From: a virus
Length of the DNA stretch: 64,000 nt
IMG/VR virus record: IMGVR_UViG_3300042453_001086
Location: 1-64,000 of that record
Reading direction: 5' to 3' (one strand)
Each line of letters begins with the position of its first letter. The stretch's first letter is position 1. A program made the position numbers and the translations under genes. The notes beneath the pieces are model-generated. The model was not told where the DNA came from and ran no database searches. It saw only the letters and a list, made by a program, of their open reading frames with translations. Positions 4,543 through 19,009 of the stretch are shown here, one piece after another.

Positions 4543-5622
4543 TCAACCGATAGCAGGTGCAGTGAGTGCCACAGGGGTCATCTCAGCAGCAGCAAGGTCA
4601 AGCGGGAAGTTGTGAGCATTGCGCTCGTGCATCACTTCAAAACCGAGGTTAGCACGGTTGAGGATATCTGCCCAAGTGTTGACTACACGACCGCTGCTAT
4701 CAAGCAGCGACTGGTTGAAGTTGAAACCGTTGAGGTTGAATGCCATGGTGCTAACACCAAGAGCAGCAAACCAGATACCAACCACAGGCCAAGCAGCAAG
4801 GAAGAAGTGAAGACTACGGGAGTTATTGAAGGAAGCATATTGGAAAATAAGGCGACCAAAATAACCGTGAGCAGCTACAATGTTGTAGGTCTCTTCTTCT
4901 TGTCCGAACTTGTAACCGTAGTTCTGGGATTCTACTTCTGTCGTCTCACGGACGAGGGAAGAAGTGACCAGAGATCCATGCATAGCAGAGAAAAGAGAAC
5001 CACCAAATACACCAGCCACCCCAAGCATATGGAAGGGGTGCATGAGGATGTTATGCTCCGCCTGGAAAACAAGCATGTAGTTAAATGTACCTGAAATGCC
5101 GAGAGGCATAGCATCAGAGAAGGAACCTTGTCCAAATGGATATACGAGGAACACTGCAGAAGCAGCAGCAACGGGTGCGCTGTAGGCAACACAAATCCAA
5201 GGACGCATACCAAGTCGGTAAGAAAGTTCCCACTCACGTCCCATGTAAGCATAGATACCGATTAGAAAGTGGAAGACGACCAGTTGAAATGGTCCACCAT
5301 TATATAGCCACTCATCAAGTGAAGCTGCTTCCCAGATGGGATAGAAGTGCAGACCAATAGCGTTGCTTGAAGGAACTACAGCACCAGAGATGATGTTGTT
5401 TCCCCACATTAGTGAACCAGAAACAGGTTCACGGATGCCGTCGATGTCCACAGGGGGAGCACCGATGAATGCGATGATGAAGCACGTTGCTGCAGCGAGC
5501 AGCGTTGGAATCATCAGCACACCGAACCAACCCACATAAAGGCGGTTGTTCGTTGAAGTAACCCACTGGCAGAAAGATTCCCAGGGGGACGTAGATCGTT
5601 GTTGAGCGATTGAAGCTGTCAT
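4543..5622 (-). CDS. psbA: Photosystem II D1 protein PsbA
   Basis: D1 is the rapidly turned-over photosystem II reaction-centre subunit. Phages carry it to keep host photosynthesis running during infection. The 359-residue product is full length, with five hydrophobic helices and the expected ligands. These include [11 protein letters not shown] near the primary-donor His and the [24 protein letters not shown] loop. The C-terminal [12 protein letters not shown] leads to the processed tail. There is no intron or frameshift. Its base composition is visibly GC-richer than that of its neighbours, in keeping with host origin. Its leader is about 150 nt with two hairpins, and both an early and a late promoter box lie upstream. 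Confidence 0.98.
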
Positions 5623-5871: not shown

Positions 5872-8508
5872 ATGGCAAATCGCTTTCCGTTAATAGGTAA
5901 CTCTGTAACTAAACGTCTAGAAGAACTAGCAGCAACGGACAATCTAAATCTTTCAGAGAGTGGGATTTATGACGGAACAGGTATAGGTAATCCTGGTCAA
6001 ATCCTATATTCAACTGGAGAAGGAATCGAATGGGCAAATGTTCCTGCAGAAATCGATACTACTTATTCTATTAGCGCAGAAGATGGTGGCAGTGGCAAAA
6101 AAATAATCAGATTAACTGATGTAAACTTTGTCACTGATGATGTAACTTTAGCACCTGGAACAAATATTTCACTCACAAGAAGTGGAGATGAAATAACTAT
6201 AAACGCAACCTATGTAGATACAGATACTATTACAAGTATCAAAGGTGGTGTTGCTGGTTCTTTTGTCACTGGCGAAGTTTCTTTATTGCCTACTGGTTCC
6301 GTTTTTATAACTCAAGTAGGTAACAACATTACTATTGGTGCTTCTGATACAAACACTATCACTAGAATAAAGGGTGGTAGTAGCGGAAGTTTTGTTACAG
6401 GTGATGTAACTATTACTGCATCTGGCGCTTCATCTGTAAACCAAGCAGGAAACACTGTAAACGTTTCTAGCACAGACACTGTAACTAGACTAAAAGCAAG
6501 TGGAGCAGGCGGAACATTCACAACAGGAGATATTACGTTAGCGGGTGGTGGAGCTGCCTCAGTAACTCAAAGTGGTTCTACTATCACAGTTAACTCTCCA
6601 AACACTACATATGGACTTAATGTAACTGATACTTCAACCACAGTAAAAACCCTCTCTTTAGCTGGTTCAGATAATACTTCTGTTGATGTTACTATCACTG
6701 CTGGACCTGGAGTTGTATTAACAGTTGATAATAATGATATTGAGTTTTCTGTCAATGTTTCAACCATCAACATCAATGACTTGGGTGATGTCACAATCAC
6801 AGATCCTGTCAATAATCATGCATTAAAATATTCAAATGGTTCTTGGGTAAATGGGTTTGTAAGTTATTCTGAACTTACCAATACTCCTGCTCTAGCAACA
6901 GTGGCAACTAGCGGCAGTTACAGTGATCTATCAAATCTCCCAGACTTACAACCAGTAGCAACATCGGGATCATACAACGACCTAGATGATTTACCTGTAT
7001 TAGTTACCGATGCATCAGATTTAACTGACACAACGAATCGTTTCTTCTCTGGAGATTATAGTGACTTATTAAATGCCCCTACTCTAGCAGATGTAGCAAC
7101 ATCAGGAGACTATAATGATCTACTAAGTCTCCCTGATTTAAAACCAGTTGCAACCTCTGGTGAGTACAGTGATTTATCTGGACTGCCAACTATTCCACCA
7201 AATAGAGAATACATTATATCAGCAGAAACCGATACAACTGGAGCTAAGATTAGACTTAGGGAAAATAATAGTTTAACAGATGATGATTTAGTTTTAGTTT
7301 CTGGAACTGGCATCACTGTCAGCAGAACAGATCAAAATACTATTAATATCACATCAACTGTAAGTGGATTACCTTCGGGATTAACTGCTACTGCATCTTC
7401 GCTAGTGTTTGAAGGTTCTACTGTAGATACTTTTAAAACTACTGTCCAAGTAGCAAACCCAACCGCAAATAGAACCCTAACACTACCCAACTTAAATGGC
7501 ACTATCATTGTAGATAGCACCAACAAAACTTATACGATGGATGTTTCTGAAACTGATACTCGTTTTTACGAAGGAAAAATAGGTTTACTAGGATCAAACA
7601 CAGGTGGTACTACATACGCTATAGTTTCTGGCGTGGGTGGTCTTAAAGTAGATACAGATAGCGTAACAGGTTCTCAGCAATCTGCATCAATAGGTGGACT
7701 AACTATCACACCACCCCCAGCAGTACATGTAGGAACTTCTGCTCCAGCATGGGCAAAAGATGGAGATCTATGGTATAACAATACCACAGGAGTTTTAAAA
7801 ATATTCGATGAAAGTTTATATCCAACTCCAGATGCTACTGTAGATTATTTTCAAGCAGTAGACTTAGGAGATAGTAGATTTTTCTGTGACAGAATCCCAC
7901 TGATTTACATTCCTACAGATAACCAGTTTATTGTTGGACCTGGCATACCATCAGGTGCTTTTGTTTCCAGTAGATTTGATCCACAAACAGGTAATAATGT
8001 TGGGTGGTTCAACTTAAACACTCCAGTTACCACAAACATTCCACATAATGCAAAATTAAGAGTTTATAGCACAAATCCAAACGTAAATATTAGTACTATT
8101 TGGAGAACTGTATACGAACCACAACCACAAAAACAACTACAGTCAAGAACAACTGCTGTAGGAACAACACCATTACTAGCACAAGACGAATCCGCAAACA
8201 TAACCATAACAGGATTCAAATCTTATGCACTATTAAAAGTACAAACAAATAACTCTGCGTGGGTTCGTTTGTATACAAGCTCAACCGCAAGAGATAATGA
8301 TGCAGGGAGAAGTTATGGCAATCCAGTTCCACAAAATGCTGGCGTTGTCTGTGACGTGACAACGATATCAAATCAAGTTCTTCCAATAACTCCATCTCTC
8401 ATAGGGTTTAGTGACGAAGATACTACTATATTTGCAACCATCGTAAATAAATCTGGTTCAAACACTGCGATTACAACTACGTTAACTATCCTAAAACTAG
8501 AAGATTAA
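5872..8508 (+). CDS. Large repetitive tail-fibre-like virion protein
   Basis: This 878-residue protein is rich in Thr, Ser, Gly, Asn and Asp and has no catalytic motif, which is typical of a phage fibre or structural adhesin. After an N-terminal segment (MANRFPLIGNSVTKRLEEL) that may anchor to the virion, residues of about 70-250 hold tandem units built on 'TxTxxKGG...GSFVTGxVxL'. Residues of about 340-450 hold at least five copies of 'ATSGxYxDLxxLP'. A more complex C-terminal region (from about 600) may be the receptor-binding tip. It is the only large plus-strand gene in the window, has a perfect late promoter and ends at a strong terminator. The host-range role is inferred. Confidence 0.8.
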   Translation: MANRFPLIGNSVTKRLEELAATDNLNLSESGIYDGTGIGNPGQILYSTGEGIEWANVPAEIDTTYSISAEDGGSGKKIIRLTDVNFVTDDVTLAPGTNISLTRSGDEITINATYVDTDTITSIKGGVAGSFVTGEVSLLPTGSVFITQVGNNITIGASDTNTITRIKGGSSGSFVTGDVTITASGASSVNQAGNTVNVSSTDTVTRLKASGAGGTFTTGDITLAGGGAASVTQSGSTITVNSPNTTYGLNVTDTSTTVKTLSLAGSDNTSVDVTITAGPGVVLTVDNNDIEFSVNVSTININDLGDVTITDPVNNHALKYSNGSWVNGFVSYSELTNTPALATVATSGSYSDLSNLPDLQPVATSGSYNDLDDLPVLVTDASDLTDTTNRFFSGDYSDLLNAPTLADVATSGDYNDLLSLPDLKPVATSGEYSDLSGLPTIPPNREYIISAETDTTGAKIRLRENNSLTDDDLVLVSGTGITVSRTDQNTINITSTVSGLPSGLTATASSLVFEGSTVDTFKTTVQVANPTANRTLTLPNLNGTIIVDSTNKTYTMDVSETDTRFYEGKIGLLGSNTGGTTYAIVSGVGGLKVDTDSVTGSQQSASIGGLTITPPPAVHVGTSAPAWAKDGDLWYNNTTGVLKIFDESLYPTPDATVDYFQAVDLGDSRFFCDRIPLIYIPTDNQFIVGPGIPSGAFVSSRFDPQTGNNVGWFNLNTPVTTNIPHNAKLRVYSTNPNVNISTIWRTVYEPQPQKQLQSRTTAVGTTPLLAQDESANITITGFKSYALLKVQTNNSAWVRLYTSSTARDNDAGRSYGNPVPQNAGVVCDVTTISNQVLPITPSLIGFSDEDTTIFATIVNKSGSNTAITTTLTILKLED

Positions 8509-8676: not shown

Positions 8677-8970
8677 TTAAAGATTTTCTTCTTGTTCAGT
8701 CAGAATAACACAGTCGCTGGTGGGATATGCTACACAAGTTAGAACCCAACCATCTGCCATTTGTTCATCATCAAGAAAGGATTGCTCCTCGTTATCAACA
8801 GTGCCGCTGATTAGTTTACCAGCACAGGCACTACAGGCACCCGCACGGCAACTGGAAGGTAGGTCGATACCTGCAAACTCAGCAGCATCAAGAATATATT
8901 GGTCATCAGGGCACTGAATAGTCTGCTCAGTACCATCAGGGGATTGAAGAGTAATGGAATAGGTAGCCAT
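8677..8970 (-). CDS. petF: Plant-type [2Fe-2S] ferredoxin PetF
   Basis: Soluble ferredoxin accepts electrons from photosystem I and feeds reductases. The 97-residue chain has the four cluster ligands Cys41, Cys46, Cys49 and Cys79 in the classic CX4CX2CX29C spacing, and the family length. Its ATG overlaps the stop of the upstream 28-residue membrane peptide (TGATG), so translation is probably coupled. A possible internal promoter (TTGACA, 16 bases, TACAAT) lies inside that small gene. The operon context (two hli genes) suggests maintenance of electron flow under light stress. Confidence 0.95.
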
Positions 8971-9070: not shown

Positions 9071-9274
9071 TCAGAAGATGCCGAAGAAGAGTTTGCCAGT
9101 GACAAGATAAGAAACAGCACCAGCAACGATGCCGACCATTGCCCAACGCCCATTGTACATCTCCGTAGTTTGCATAGGAGTCATAAGACCCTTGCGATTG
9201 TATTCTTGGTAAACCATTTCAGGTTCTTTGGCCCACATGTTTTGCTGGCCATACTCATTCGTCGTAACAGTCAT
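9071..9274 (-). CDS. hli: High-light-inducible protein (67 aa)
   Basis: This is an HLI protein with a soluble N-terminal extension (about 37 residues) and a single chlorophyll-binding helix. The helix carries TTEMYNGRWAMVGIVAGAVSYLVTG, in which ExxNGRxAMxG is the family motif. It is the first gene of the hli/petF operon, preceded by a consensus promoter at 9301-9329. The role is photoprotection of the infected host's thylakoids. Confidence 0.93.
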   Translation of the reverse strand: MTVTTNEYGQQNMWAKEPEMVYQEYNRKGLMTPMQTTEMYNGRWAMVGIVAGAVSYLVTGKLFFGIF

Positions 9275-11919: not shown

Positions 11920-11920
11920 A

Positions 11921-11991
11921 GCCCTCAACTAGATTCGAACTAGCGACCTACTCATTACTAGTGAGTTGCTCTACCACTGAGCTATAAGGGC
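11921..11991 (-). tRNA. tRNA-Thr (AGT), unusual A34
   Basis: Acceptor GCCCTTA/TGAGGGC; perfect anticodon stem ACTCA/TGAGT with loop CTAGTAA, giving AGT. In bacteria A34 is normally confined to tRNA-Arg(ACG), so this anticodon is unusual. Other positions look normal. Confidence 0.9.
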
Positions 11992-13313: not shown

Positions 13314-13417
13314 AGGTGCTCTCCACTACACTATATATCTGCTACGATAGCGTGTAGTTTTGAGCGAAACCCAACATATTGGGCTGCAATCTCCAGTTTT
13401 TCATGCTTTTGATTGCC
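13314..13417 (-). other. Spacer with two hairpins, no convincing gene
   Basis: The minus strand folds CCCAA/TTGGG (loop TATG) and CTACAC/GTGTAG. A 20-codon frame (MKNWRLQPN...) has no ribosome-binding site. Likely tRNA-precursor spacer. Confidence 0.4.
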
Positions 13418-13487
13418 TTTGCGTGTCGGACTTGAACCAACAACCTCCCCACCATCGGGGGCGCTCTACCGATTGAGCTAACGCTGA
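13418..13487 (-). pseudogene. Degenerate tRNA-Pro-like gene (TGG)
   Basis: D arm and T arm are intact, but the acceptor TCAGCGT/ACGCAAA has two internal mismatches. In either folding of the anticodon arm position 33 is not T (A or G). The anticodon would be TGG. A fully normal tRNA-Pro(TGG) exists at 16093-16165, preceded by a related spacer, so this looks like a decayed duplicate. Confidence 0.65.
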
Positions 13488-15582: not shown

Positions 15583-15654
15583 GGAGAATAGCGGACTCGA
15601 ACCGCTGACATTCGCCTTGCAAAGGCGCTACTCTACCAACTGAGTTAATTCCCC
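15583..15654 (-). tRNA. tRNA-Ala (TGC)
   Basis: Acceptor GGGGAAT/ATTCTCC; anticodon loop TTTGCAA. Its 5' 27 bases overlap the 3' end of the antitoxin-like gene. Confidence 0.93.
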
Positions 15655-15801
15655 CTGTATTCGGGCATAGTTTTCATATGGCATCAGAAGAACATCCCCA
15701 CCATTGGAAGTGGTAATAATAAAACTTTCTTTGTTTAGCATTACATTGTCCATGATTTCATCAAAGTCGTGACAAAAAGTTTCTTCTGTAATCGTTTTCA
15801 T
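15628..15801 (-). CDS. Orphan Phd/YefM-like antitoxin
   Basis: The 57-residue chain MKTITEETFCHDFDEIMDNV continues to SFIITTSNGGDVLLMPYENY. It matches the Phd/YefM antitoxin fold pattern: an initial MKTIT strand, a helix, then the 'FIIT..G..V.LMPYEEY' strand-helix. GGAG lies eight bases upstream of the ATG, and the start overlaps the glutaredoxin stop (ATGA). The 3' end runs into tRNA-Ala. No toxin gene of the Doc, RelE or YoeB kind is adjacent. Confidence 0.7.
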   Translation of the reverse strand: MKTITEETFCHDFDEIMDNVMLNKESFIITTSNGGDVLLMPYENYARIQGELTQLVE

Positions 15802-16070
15802 ACCATACACTCCATGTCTTTTTCTTCTTGTAGGCAACCAATACTGGTTAGATATTCAATAGTTTCAGTGCAACCTCCTACACGATGACCATCAAGGGTA
15901 ACCTGAGGGAATGTTGAACCTTCACCAAACTCATTATAGAATGCTTCTCTGTCAAAGTCAACATCCAGTTTGTACTGTGTGTATTTGACAGTAAAACTAT
16001 CAAGGATAACCTTGAGTTTACGACAATATTCACAGTTATCTCGTGTGTAAATAACCAGTTGCGAAATCAT
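15798..16070 (-). CDS. grx: Second glutaredoxin
   Basis: This 90-residue glutaredoxin has Cys13-Glu-Tyr-Cys16 at the active site and the cis-Pro segment STFPQVTLDGHRVGG. It differs clearly from the CPSC enzyme at 3852-4106, so two redox proteins may serve different partners (for example ribonucleotide reductase and another). It lies between tRNA-Pro and the antitoxin-like gene. Confidence 0.9.
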   Translation of the reverse strand: MISQLVIYTRDNCEYCRKLKVILDSFTVKYTQYKLDVDFDREAFYNEFGEGSTFPQVTLDGHRVGGCTETIEYLTSIGCLQEEKDMECMV

Positions 16071-16445: not shown

Positions 16446-17300
16446 TCAGAACTTGATGCCCAGACCCGTGGTGAACACAGGAGAGTAAGAACCCGTACCA
16501 ACTTTCTCGGTAGGGAACTTCAGATCAGCAAAACCAATCAGGGAGTTGGTGATGCGACCTTCCAAACCAAGAGCAAGCACAGCAGTGCCAGTGCCTACAG
16601 CAGACTGAGAGTTTGCTTCAACACCGTTGACGAAAGGAACTTGGTAACCAGCAGCGGCATAGATGTTAGCGGCGCTTACACCTGCCTTACGGGCGATGCT
16701 CCAGTCATAGGAGAGCATAGCACCACCAGCAGCACCGATGTTGCTATCAGGACCAGCAACAGCATTGATGTAAGGGCGAACCGATACAGCATTCTGGTTG
16801 CTGAAAGTCTTCACAGCATAGCGAGCTTGGAGAGTACCACCAGAGATGGTGCTGTTGGCAGTCTTACCACCACCGTCAACGCCTTGCTTATTCAGCAGGA
16901 CGCCAAGACCAACGTAGTTACCTACGCCTTGTGCCTTGCGAGCAGCAGCGACCTCAAGGGCGCTCACGCGGGTGTTGGTAGCAGCGATCTCTTTAGCAAA
17001 CTGAGCGCGTAGAGCGGCAGCCAGAGCAGCGTCAGCGGCGCTCTGATACTCGCTGATACGGTCAAGGCAAGCGTTGGTGAGAGCGGCGAGCTCAGCACGG
17101 GAAGCGGGTTGACCAGGCTCAAAAGTGCCATTGGGGTAACCAGCAACACAACCGTAGCGAGAGATCAGGTTAGAGATAGCCTGATACGACCAATCAGTAG
17201 GTTGCACATCTTTCAGTTGAGTCACACTGGTGACTTGTGCCATGGCAGGAGCAGCAATAGAAGCAGCAGCAACGCCAGCAGCAATAAACGAACGAATCAT
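16446..17300 (-). CDS. SLH-domain outer-membrane (porin-like) protein
   Basis: A 284-residue exported protein. Residues 1-21 are a signal peptide (MIRSFIAAGVAAASIAAPAMA, cut before Gln). Residues about 24-80 form one S-layer-homology domain (VQPTDWSYQAISNLISRYGC, then GYPNGTFEPGQPASRAELA). Residues about 85-118 are an Ala-rich coiled coil, and the remainder is Gly-rich beta structure ending in Phe (GLGIKF), as in outer-membrane barrels. This is the architecture of cyanobacterial SomA/SomB porins, but about half their length. Composition is visibly GC-rich and host-like. No obvious ribosome-binding site. A role in altering the infected cell's surface is inference. Confidence 0.85.
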   Translation of the reverse strand: MIRSFIAAGVAAASIAAPAMAQVTSVTQLKDVQPTDWSYQAISNLISRYGCVAGYPNGTFEPGQPASRAELAALTNACLDRISEYQSAADAALAAALRAQFAKEIAATNTRVSALEVAAARKAQGVGNYVGLGVLLNKQGVDGGGKTANSTISGGTLQARYAVKTFSNQNAVSVRPYINAVAGPDSNIGAAGGAMLSYDWSIARKAGVSAANIYAAAGYQVPFVNGVEANSQSAVGTGTAVLALGLEGRITNSLIGFADLKFPTEKVGTGSYSPVFTTGLGIKF

Positions 17301-17346
17301 AATAGTTTCTTAAGATTTAAACGACATGTCATGCCCATAGGGCAAC

Positions 17347-17434
17347 GGAAGTGGTTGGATTTGAACCAACGGATGCCCATAAAGACATCGGCGGTTTAGC
17401 AAACCGCTGCATTAAGCCGCTCTGCCACACTTCC
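17347..17434 (-). tRNA. tRNA-Ser (GCT)
   Basis: 88 bases with long variable arm; anticodon stem GCGGT/ACCGC, loop TTGCTAA. Its 5' base coincides with the last base of the stop codon of the 85-residue gene. Confidence 0.95.
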
Positions 17435-17691
17435 TAGCGGATTTCAAAGTCCAGTTTTCTGGGTATTCTCTTAGTATAACCTGCTACAGGAGGATTGTCA
17501 ACCCTTTTCTCTTTCGGTTTACCGACTCCATCAACAGCAGTAATGTGCGACAAGTCATTGCCACTGATAATAGGCATACCACTTCTATCTAACCTCAGAA
17601 GGGTATGATTATCGCAGCCACATGACTTGCTTTTGTTTGGTTGATATACTTCTAACTCTACGCCACATGCGTTACATCTGATCTTTGCCAT
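17434..17691 (-). CDS. Small zinc-ribbon hypothetical protein (85 aa)
   Basis: Starts MAKIRCNACGVELEVYQPNK with CNAC at 6-9 and a CGC at about 24-26, a short zinc-ribbon-like arrangement. The rest, including ISGNDLSHITAVDGVGKPK and a basic tail, is not diagnostic. A promoter for the downstream tRNA-Ser lies inside its 3' end. Overlaps the upstream gene by 20 bases. Confidence 0.65.
   Translation of the reverse strand: MAKIRCNACGVELEVYQPNKSKSCGCDNHTLLRLDRSGMPIISGNDLSHITAVDGVGKPKEKRVDNPPVAGYTKRIPRKLDFEIR
17473..17501 (-). promoter_or_regulatory. Consensus promoter for tRNA-Ser(GCT)/SLH gene
   Basis: TTGACA (17496-17501), 17 bases, TATACT (17473-17478), embedded in the end of the 85-residue coding region. 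Confidence 0.75.
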
Positions 17692-18066: not shown

Positions 18067-18095
18067 ATTATATCACTGCTTAGGGCAGTTGTCAA
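18067..18095 (-). promoter_or_regulatory. Perfect consensus promoter for tRNA-Arg/tRNA-Val
   Basis: TTGACA (18090-18095), 17 bases, TATAAT (18067-18072), overlapping the end of the 142-residue frame. Confidence 0.8.
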
Positions 18096-18474
18096 GCCAT
18101 GGAGCACAGAGTCTCATCGGTGGAGCGAGTGCTTTGCACTCATCACTGTAGCATAATGTTTCGTCATTTGCTTCTTCTATATAGCGAGGTTTATATACTT
18201 GTGCTTTTGATAAACCAGATTGTCTCCAATAATCATCAATAGCATTGGTGACATCTCGTTCTACTCTACGTTTTACTTTGTCAGGGTCTTTAACAATAAC
18301 CCTGTTAATAGTAGTCTGCGGGAAAAACTTTCTTTGAACTTCGTCAAGTAAATCCCAAAGGTTGTTTTCATGTATTCCAGTGCATTGTGAGAGTGCTGCA
18401 ATGATAGAAGATAATACGATACTGGTTGTTATAATAGTTTTGTTAGAGGGCTTACCAAAGTGAAAGTTAAACAT
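18073..18474 (-). CDS. Hypothetical membrane-anchored protein (133 aa)
   Basis: From the ATG at 18474: MFNFHFGKPSNKTIITTSIV, with a single hydrophobic segment (IITTSIVLSSIIAALSQC) near the N-terminus, then a soluble charged domain with several Cys (ETLCYSDECKALA, RLCAPWLDNCPKQ). The Cys-rich tail behind a membrane segment suggests a periplasmic, disulfide-bearing domain. A longer frame begins nine codons upstream. An AATAAATA late box lies 28 bases upstream. Confidence 0.6.
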   Translation of the reverse strand: MFNFHFGKPSNKTIITTSIVLSSIIAALSQCTGIHENNLWDLLDEVQRKFFPQTTINRVIVKDPDKVKRRVERDVTNAIDDYWRQSGLSKAQVYKPRYIEEANDETLCYSDECKALAPPMRLCAPWLDNCPKQ

Positions 18475-18501
18475 AAAGGGGAGGTCTGCAGCACTCCCCA
18501 A

Positions 18502-18516: not shown

Positions 18517-18879
18517 TCAAACCCTTGAATAGCAGACGCTGGCAACGCCTTGACTGGGTGAAGCAATAGTTGAGAATGCACCATAAGACAAGTCAAGGTC
18601 TCTCCCACCAACGTAGGGACCGCGATCATTTACGCGCACAATTACCGTCTTACCATTTCGTTGATTTGTAACTCTTAATCTAGTTCCGAAAGGAAGCCAT
18701 TTGTGTGCTACTGATTTGCCATAAGCATTGTATCTTTCGCCGTTTGCAGTCGTCTGCCCATGATATCCATCACCTACTCCATAATGTGATGCGAGGGAAC
18801 ATCCGCTCGCTGCCTTTGCCTGCAGGGGTGCCAATCCTGTAACTGCAATGGCAAGAATTGAAAGTGATTTAAGAAGCAT
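18517..18879 (-). CDS. RlpA-like exported double-psi beta-barrel protein
   Basis: 120 residues from MLLKSLSILAIAVTGLAPLQ: a signal peptide (cut near AKA-A) followed by one RlpA/DPBB domain. Diagnostic segments are CSLASHYGVGDGYHGQTTANG, then LPFGTRLRVTN, and VRVNDRGPYVGGRDLDLS. The VNDRGP and DLS residues are the catalytic-site region of RlpA lytic transglycosylases. It could trim host peptidoglycan in the periplasm during infection or at lysis. An in-frame TTG 16 codons upstream is a poorer start. A consensus promoter is 130 bases upstream. Confidence 0.85.
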   Translation of the reverse strand: MLLKSLSILAIAVTGLAPLQAKAASGCSLASHYGVGDGYHGQTTANGERYNAYGKSVAHKWLPFGTRLRVTNQRNGKTVIVRVNDRGPYVGGRDLDLSYGAFSTIASPSQGVASVCYSRV

Positions 18880-19009
18880 TAATTTTAATAGAACTCTACA
18901 TCCGAATAGAAGGGGGGTATACCACAACCATCTCTGGGGGCACCTTCCTCGGCTCTAAATGTCACTCACGTTATAATAATGAGACTCCTCACAAATGTGA
19001 AGAAATCAT

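Follow-up and report, generated by a model that had tools for sequence, protein, structure and literature searches.

The window analysed here is a stretch of 64,000 nucleotides from a virus of cyanobacteria (IMG/VR record IMGVR_UViG_3300042453_001086, positions 1 to 64,000). A gene on its minus strand (16446..17300, ATG start) encodes a predicted SLH-stalk-barrel outer-membrane protein of 284 aa, and the parts described next all lie on this strand. The protein begins with a signal peptide (residues 1-21, 17238..17300; AMA/Q), for which cleavage was placed by inspection at MIRSFIAAGVAAASIAAPAMA/Q; an AxA-type site is kept in 66 of the 67 versions of the family. The signal peptide is followed by an SLH domain (residues 30-72, 17085..17213; Pfam PF00395, E 3.9e-11), a coiled-coil stalk (residues 88-123, 16932..17039), which AlphaFold models as a helix and which aligns with the homologous stalk of Som porins and OmpM, and a putative eight-stranded outer-membrane barrel (residues 128-284, 16449..16919) assigned by structure prediction and homology. 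The C-terminus, TTGLGIKF (residues 277-284, 16449..16472), is a barrel-insertion motif of the beta-signal type that matches xxGxx(phi)x(aromatic), and this pattern is present at the C-terminus of 67/67 versions. An earlier note on this DNA had read a signal peptide, one SLH domain, a coiled coil and a Gly-rich beta region ending in Phe from the sequence alone, and these four features are borne out. Pfam gives one SLH stretch, and the structural model puts the barrel after it. S-layer proteins usually carry three SLH repeats and a lattice-forming region, and identity as an S-layer protein was rejected on this architecture.

The N-terminal part of the protein is of the Som type. Residues 22-120 aligned with the stalk region of host Som porins with an hhalign probability of 100% (E 3.6e-41, 60% identity), and through this part the full protein matched Som-type SLH proteins in 189 of 399 host-order genomes. 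The NCBIfam model NF033921 por_somb ('iron uptake porin') matched residues 23-120, covering only positions 1-106 of its 485, with a score of 91.9 bits that is under the curated cut-off of 100. One relative (L150) retains a Som-like leader (ADINLSAVNQYASAEQVTS), which fits an origin of the family from such a gene. Som and OmpM stalks act as trimers. By sequence, the nearest solved structures were the Veillonella OmpM outer-membrane tethers, over residues 15-119 only. Trp37 and Arg68 are invariant in 67/67 versions, and both align with OmpM residues for which a part in wall-ligand binding has been proposed (PMC10628300). The OmpM ligand site consists of Trp, Gly and the Arg of TRAE; in the phage protein the Gly is displaced by one position (Pro62-Gly63).

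The remainder of the protein is predicted to form a complete eight-stranded barrel of the OmpA/OmpX type. The full-length model, built from 26 sequences, was weak (pLDDT 56.5) and placed eight strands from residue 128, while the model of the barrel only, built from 65 sequences, was confident (pLDDT 90.6, pTM 0.84) and also had eight strands. PDB matches to the barrel model were OmpA, OprF, Ail, OmpW, OmpX and NspA, and those of the full-length model were of the same class. The expectation of the earlier note that a barrel lies after residue 120 thus agrees with the structure prediction. Its proposal that the protein is a shortened Som porin does not hold. Comparison of the part after residue 120 with the host barrel gave no sign of Som/OprB barrel homology (hhalign probability 0.25%), Pfam found no match to the OprB barrel (PF04966) in the window protein, and the predicted fold is complete with eight strands. 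These results also bear on a role in uptake or permeability, which is the role implied by the 'iron uptake porin' annotation of the relative in phage S-CREM1 and by the NF033921 match in the N-terminal part. We consider this role highly improbable. The match is confined to residues 23-120 and is below the curated cut-off, the OprB barrel is absent, and barrels of the OmpA/OmpX type have eight strands and no wide pore. Furthermore, the full porin that is carried by a phage, S-SRM01, is a different gene.

Searches for the source of the barrel pointed away from the host order. The barrel profile had no hit at E<=0.001 among 399 host-order genomes, while the phages that served as the positive control were recovered at 1e-87 or better. 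The only trace in these genomes was a fragment at E=0.03 with stop codons, and a host-genome copy of the barrel was accordingly rejected; a barrel-only search of genome contigs found no relative. Across the phylum, 10 of 386 genomes had matches to the profile, and these were free-standing secreted proteins of ~170 aa, with E values down to 2e-9. The two of these free-standing cyanobacterial proteins that were tested both scored above the cut-off of the Pfam OMP_b-brl family (PF13505), which none of 14 phage barrels matched directly. The phage barrel aligned with the free-standing family over 140 columns (hhalign probability 98%, E 2.7e-13, 31% identity), and this family was found in 56 of the 292 cyanobacterial genomes sampled but in 0 of 299 host-order genomes. 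Within this sampling, the barrel module would therefore come from outside the present host order.

Because its N-terminal part pairs with the Som stalk and its barrel pairs with free-standing small cyanobacterial outer-membrane proteins, the phage protein is, as judged from sequence comparison, a fusion that joins two outer-membrane modules of cyanobacteria. In broad terms, homology and prediction support the earlier description, in which an outer-membrane protein of host origin combines an SLH anchor with a barrel. The signal peptide, single SLH domain and stalk are shared with the Som porins (NF033921; SLH + OprB, for example Slr1841 and Slr1908), but these are ~480-640 aa long and end in a large OprB barrel, whereas the phage protein has ~284 aa and carries an unrelated eight-stranded barrel instead. 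The tethers OmpM of diderm Firmicutes and SlpA of Deinococcus have the same order of SLH, coiled coil and barrel (coil and barrel being predicted in the phage protein), although the barrel of OmpM is a large porin barrel and that of the phage protein is small. The free-standing small cyanobacterial proteins (L263-L268, PF13505 type) are homologous to the phage barrel end to end. In contrast to the phage fusion, these proteins and gp38 of phage S-CBWM1 are without SLH domain or stalk. The latter (L238, 25796-26266) is a free-standing small barrel protein whose gene lies in a tRNA region of the phage, close to an RlpA gene. It resembles the cellular family, but its direct match to the phage barrel was weak (pairwise probability 20), and the two are plausibly homologous only by way of that cellular family.

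Among 50,697 phage records, the whole protein was found in two, S-CREM1 (77% identity) and S-PM2 (63%); S-SRM01 matched over the SLH domain only. In IMG/VR, 41 loci were recovered with the full query and about 140 stretches with the barrel profile. The earlier note had supposed that this is not a standard cyanophage gene, and this stands for sequenced isolates, where it is rare (S-PM2 and S-CREM1), but not for IMG/VR, where about 140 stretches encode the barrel. The best 80 of these 140 stretches were kept. There were 69 distinct relatives, 66 complete and 3 cut by contig ends. All 66 complete relatives have the signal peptide, SLH domain, stalk and barrel, mostly in 279-301 aa, and two are longer owing to the choice of an upstream start. 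These 66 and the window version make up the set of 67 used throughout. The fusion architecture was found in phages only, in at least 67 distinct complete versions that include S-PM2 p168 and S-CREM1.

The family is under purifying selection. By the Nei-Gojobori method on 600 random pairs, dN/dS was 0.16 overall, 0.11 in the SLH domain, 0.12 in the predicted strands and 0.24 in the predicted outer loops. The open reading frame at 16446-17300 is a real gene, because 67 distinct complete versions with this dN/dS are far beyond chance. When the ~100 residues in common were used to build a tree (105 columns), the 67 phage sequences grouped together (SH-aLRT 99) and separately from the 46 host rows, while the complete S-SRM01 porin nested among host sequences. 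This suggests that the fusion family goes back to one old acquisition and the S-SRM01 porin to a separate one. The donor cannot be named from this tree because it has 105 columns and its host rows were picked as the sequences most similar to the query. The S-SRM01 porin (L045, 2908-4368), also a phage-encoded SLH outer-membrane protein, is a complete SLH/OprB porin of the host type with 486 aa and was apparently acquired separately from the fusion.

The conservation pattern is also relevant to the suggestion that the protein serves superinfection exclusion, in which an outer-membrane barrel would hide or block a receptor or Som porin from other phages or grazers. Small barrels encoded by phages are common, and in a viral library the full-length model matched S-PM2 p168 and assorted phage outer-membrane barrels. 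In 8 relatives, a gene for a family-25 glycosyltransferase (LPS type) is found shortly upstream, and the S-PM2 version has already been described as an SLH-domain protein, for which Clokie et al. (PMC2984593) guessed at protection from infection or grazing. Against this, conservation within the barrel is lowest in the outward loops (dN/dS 0.24 compared with 0.12 in the strands), which give no sign of a fixed contact surface. A literature search on phage outer-membrane barrels and superinfection exclusion returned nothing specific. On balance, receptor masking is possible but somewhat unlikely.

The base composition of the gene was read in the earlier note as host-like. The GC content is indeed higher than that of the window (53.9% vs 41.3%), mostly because of the Ala and Gly content of the protein. 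At third codon positions the gene has 47%, which is at the top of the range of 25-47% given by seven other genes of the same phage; the family average is 34%. A recent transfer from the host, as could be read from the GC content, was rejected since GC3 is inside the phage range, and the composition is no evidence of such a transfer.

The gene is located in a tRNA-rich region upstream of photosynthesis genes. A tRNA-Ser(gct) gene (17346..17434, minus strand) lies 45 nt upstream, and a putative early-type promoter of the sigma-70 type, TTGACA-17-TATACT (17473..17501, minus strand; 11/12 match), precedes both. Downstream on the same strand are hli (high-light-inducible; 9074..9274), petF (ferredoxin; 8680..8964) and psbA (photosystem II D1; 4543..5622). 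Similar arrangements were seen in the relatives. Since these loci are related to one another, the cases counted below are not independent, and the comparisons with control ORFs and random windows are simple ones. In 37 of the 67 versions, the end of a tRNA is no more than 100 nt upstream of the gene, compared with 30 of 448 control ORFs, and 41/67 versions have a sigma-70 consensus of at least 11/12 within 300 nt, compared with 113 of 1201 windows drawn at random from these loci. The hli gene is within 500 nt downstream in 33/67 versions and in many relatives adjoins the SLH gene; petF follows in 12/67, and psbA is within 6.5 kb downstream in 17/67. The upstream tRNA is mostly tRNA-Gly(tcc), and a function as a decoding aid is unlikely, as tRNA-Gly(TCC) reads GGA/GGG and the family uses mainly GGT.

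The T4-late-type motif TAAATA gives a different picture. In the window it precedes the capsid, portal and terminase genes and is not found before the SLH-barrel gene, but it lies upstream in 47 of the 67 versions, compared with 4 expected. The S-PM2 version has the late-type motif, and a strong early promoter was not found within 300 nt; these promoters are at odds with the early and abundant transcription reported for it. The late-type motif in many relatives could be taken to mean that the protein is borne on the virion. Arguments against such a role are the Sec signal peptide and insertion motif, the neighbourhood of tRNA and photosynthesis genes, the early transcription reported for S-PM2, and the S-PM2 record, which marks p173, not p168, as a virion protein. 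Nothing was found that marks the SLH-barrel protein as an ordinary virion protein, and we regard this as the least probable of the alternatives considered. The placement is like that of an auxiliary gene and not that of a virion gene, with a host homologue and a position among auxiliary genes.

The late-type motif might likewise indicate a role in lysis, in which competition with Som porins for the SLH ligand would loosen the outer membrane and so let the lysis enzymes work. An RlpA-like (DPBB) secreted protein is encoded upstream of the SLH gene (18517..18927, minus strand), as in 31/31 loci that show both, and RlpA-like, lysozyme and one-helix membrane protein genes are nearby in about half of the relatives. 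However, the lysis genes have no fixed adjacent order, and the early-type promoters and photosynthesis-gene neighbours point to action before lysis, so that envelope weakening appears improbable. Near the RlpA, lysozyme and C39-like genes of the window, 18073-18501 encodes an apparent one-helix membrane protein (phrog_3316), possibly a spanin-like lysis protein.

Several other features of this region were noted. The segment 11769-18058 holds 22 tRNA genes interspersed with small ORFs, and, in addition to the promoter upstream of the SLH gene, two groups of tRNAs each lie behind a promoter that fits the sigma-70 consensus perfectly (12/12; minus strand, 18095-18067 and 16432-16403). The predicted tRNAs with odd anticodons, His(atg) at 13417-13487 and Thr(agt) at 11920-11991, may be misfolded or modified. 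A small Phd/YefM-like antitoxin ORF (15628-15837) was judged by synteny with S-PM2 p163, with no toxin seen beside it, and adjoins a glutaredoxin-like gene (15798-16070) as in S-PM2 p162-p163. An 878-aa virion-type protein (phrog_6002) is encoded on the plus strand at 5872-8508, between psbA and hli/petF, which are on the opposite strand.

Taken as a whole, the best explanation is a phage-specific fusion of two modules that acts as an outer-membrane-to-wall tether in the infected cell, which we hold at about even confidence. The displaced Gly, the trimeric state of Som and OmpM stalks, the weak full-length model and the S-PM2 promoter pattern count against it. The gene would be transcribed during infection, on a transcript led by a tRNA or shared with photosynthesis genes, from early- and/or late-type promoters. 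As suggested by the signal peptide, insertion motif and predicted fold, the protein would be exported and its barrel inserted into the host outer membrane. Based on homology and the invariant ligand residues, the SLH stalk would then attach to the wall polymer on the periplasmic side, as it does in Som and OmpM, resulting in an outer-membrane-to-wall tether without a large porin channel. Such a tether could keep the envelope of a still photosynthesising infected cell together once host protein synthesis drops, and the phage protein may also take SLH sites from Som porins. If SLH sites are limiting, displacement of Som porins by the phage protein would follow.

In cyanobacteria, the link between outer membrane and wall is borne by SLH porins. 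One SLH/OprB porin of Synechocystis is essential, and loss of another leads to hypervesiculation and low iron (PMC8707739); these porins thus seem to combine uptake and tethering. Because the phage protein has retained the tether but not the large channel, its role is most likely to hold or control the envelope in a cell that must keep photosynthesising, and the phage probably controls the attachment of outer membrane to wall in the infected cell. A more specific version, in which a dedicated envelope-control tether that lacks a wide channel takes the place of Som porins or displaces them and is co-expressed with photosynthesis genes to keep the cell working, is put forward tentatively. Since SLH porins carry the outer-membrane-to-wall link and one of them is essential, a phage protein with the anchor but not the channel would be a natural tool to separate their two roles.

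That such a gene exists was known before, as the S-PM2 member has been described as an SLH-domain protein. The fusion origin, barrel type and family extent were not found in the papers searched, which included few subscription papers, and the same applies to the evidence against a Som-type channel and to the link with tRNA and photosynthesis genes. Known cyanophage auxiliary genes mostly concern photosynthesis, carbon and nucleotide metabolism. The SLH-barrel fusion suggests that envelope mechanics is another target of such genes, and it is a precise, testable construct. S-PM2 p168 ('putative S-layer protein') and the S-CREM1 protein ('iron uptake porin') belong to the same family with the same architecture under different names; neither annotation fits the barrel, and both database names are misleading for the fusion family. 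A different and shorter 'S-layer domain protein' of 564-633 bp (T4-GC 425) is listed for six other cyanophages, not including S-PM2 (PMC3037559, Table 3).
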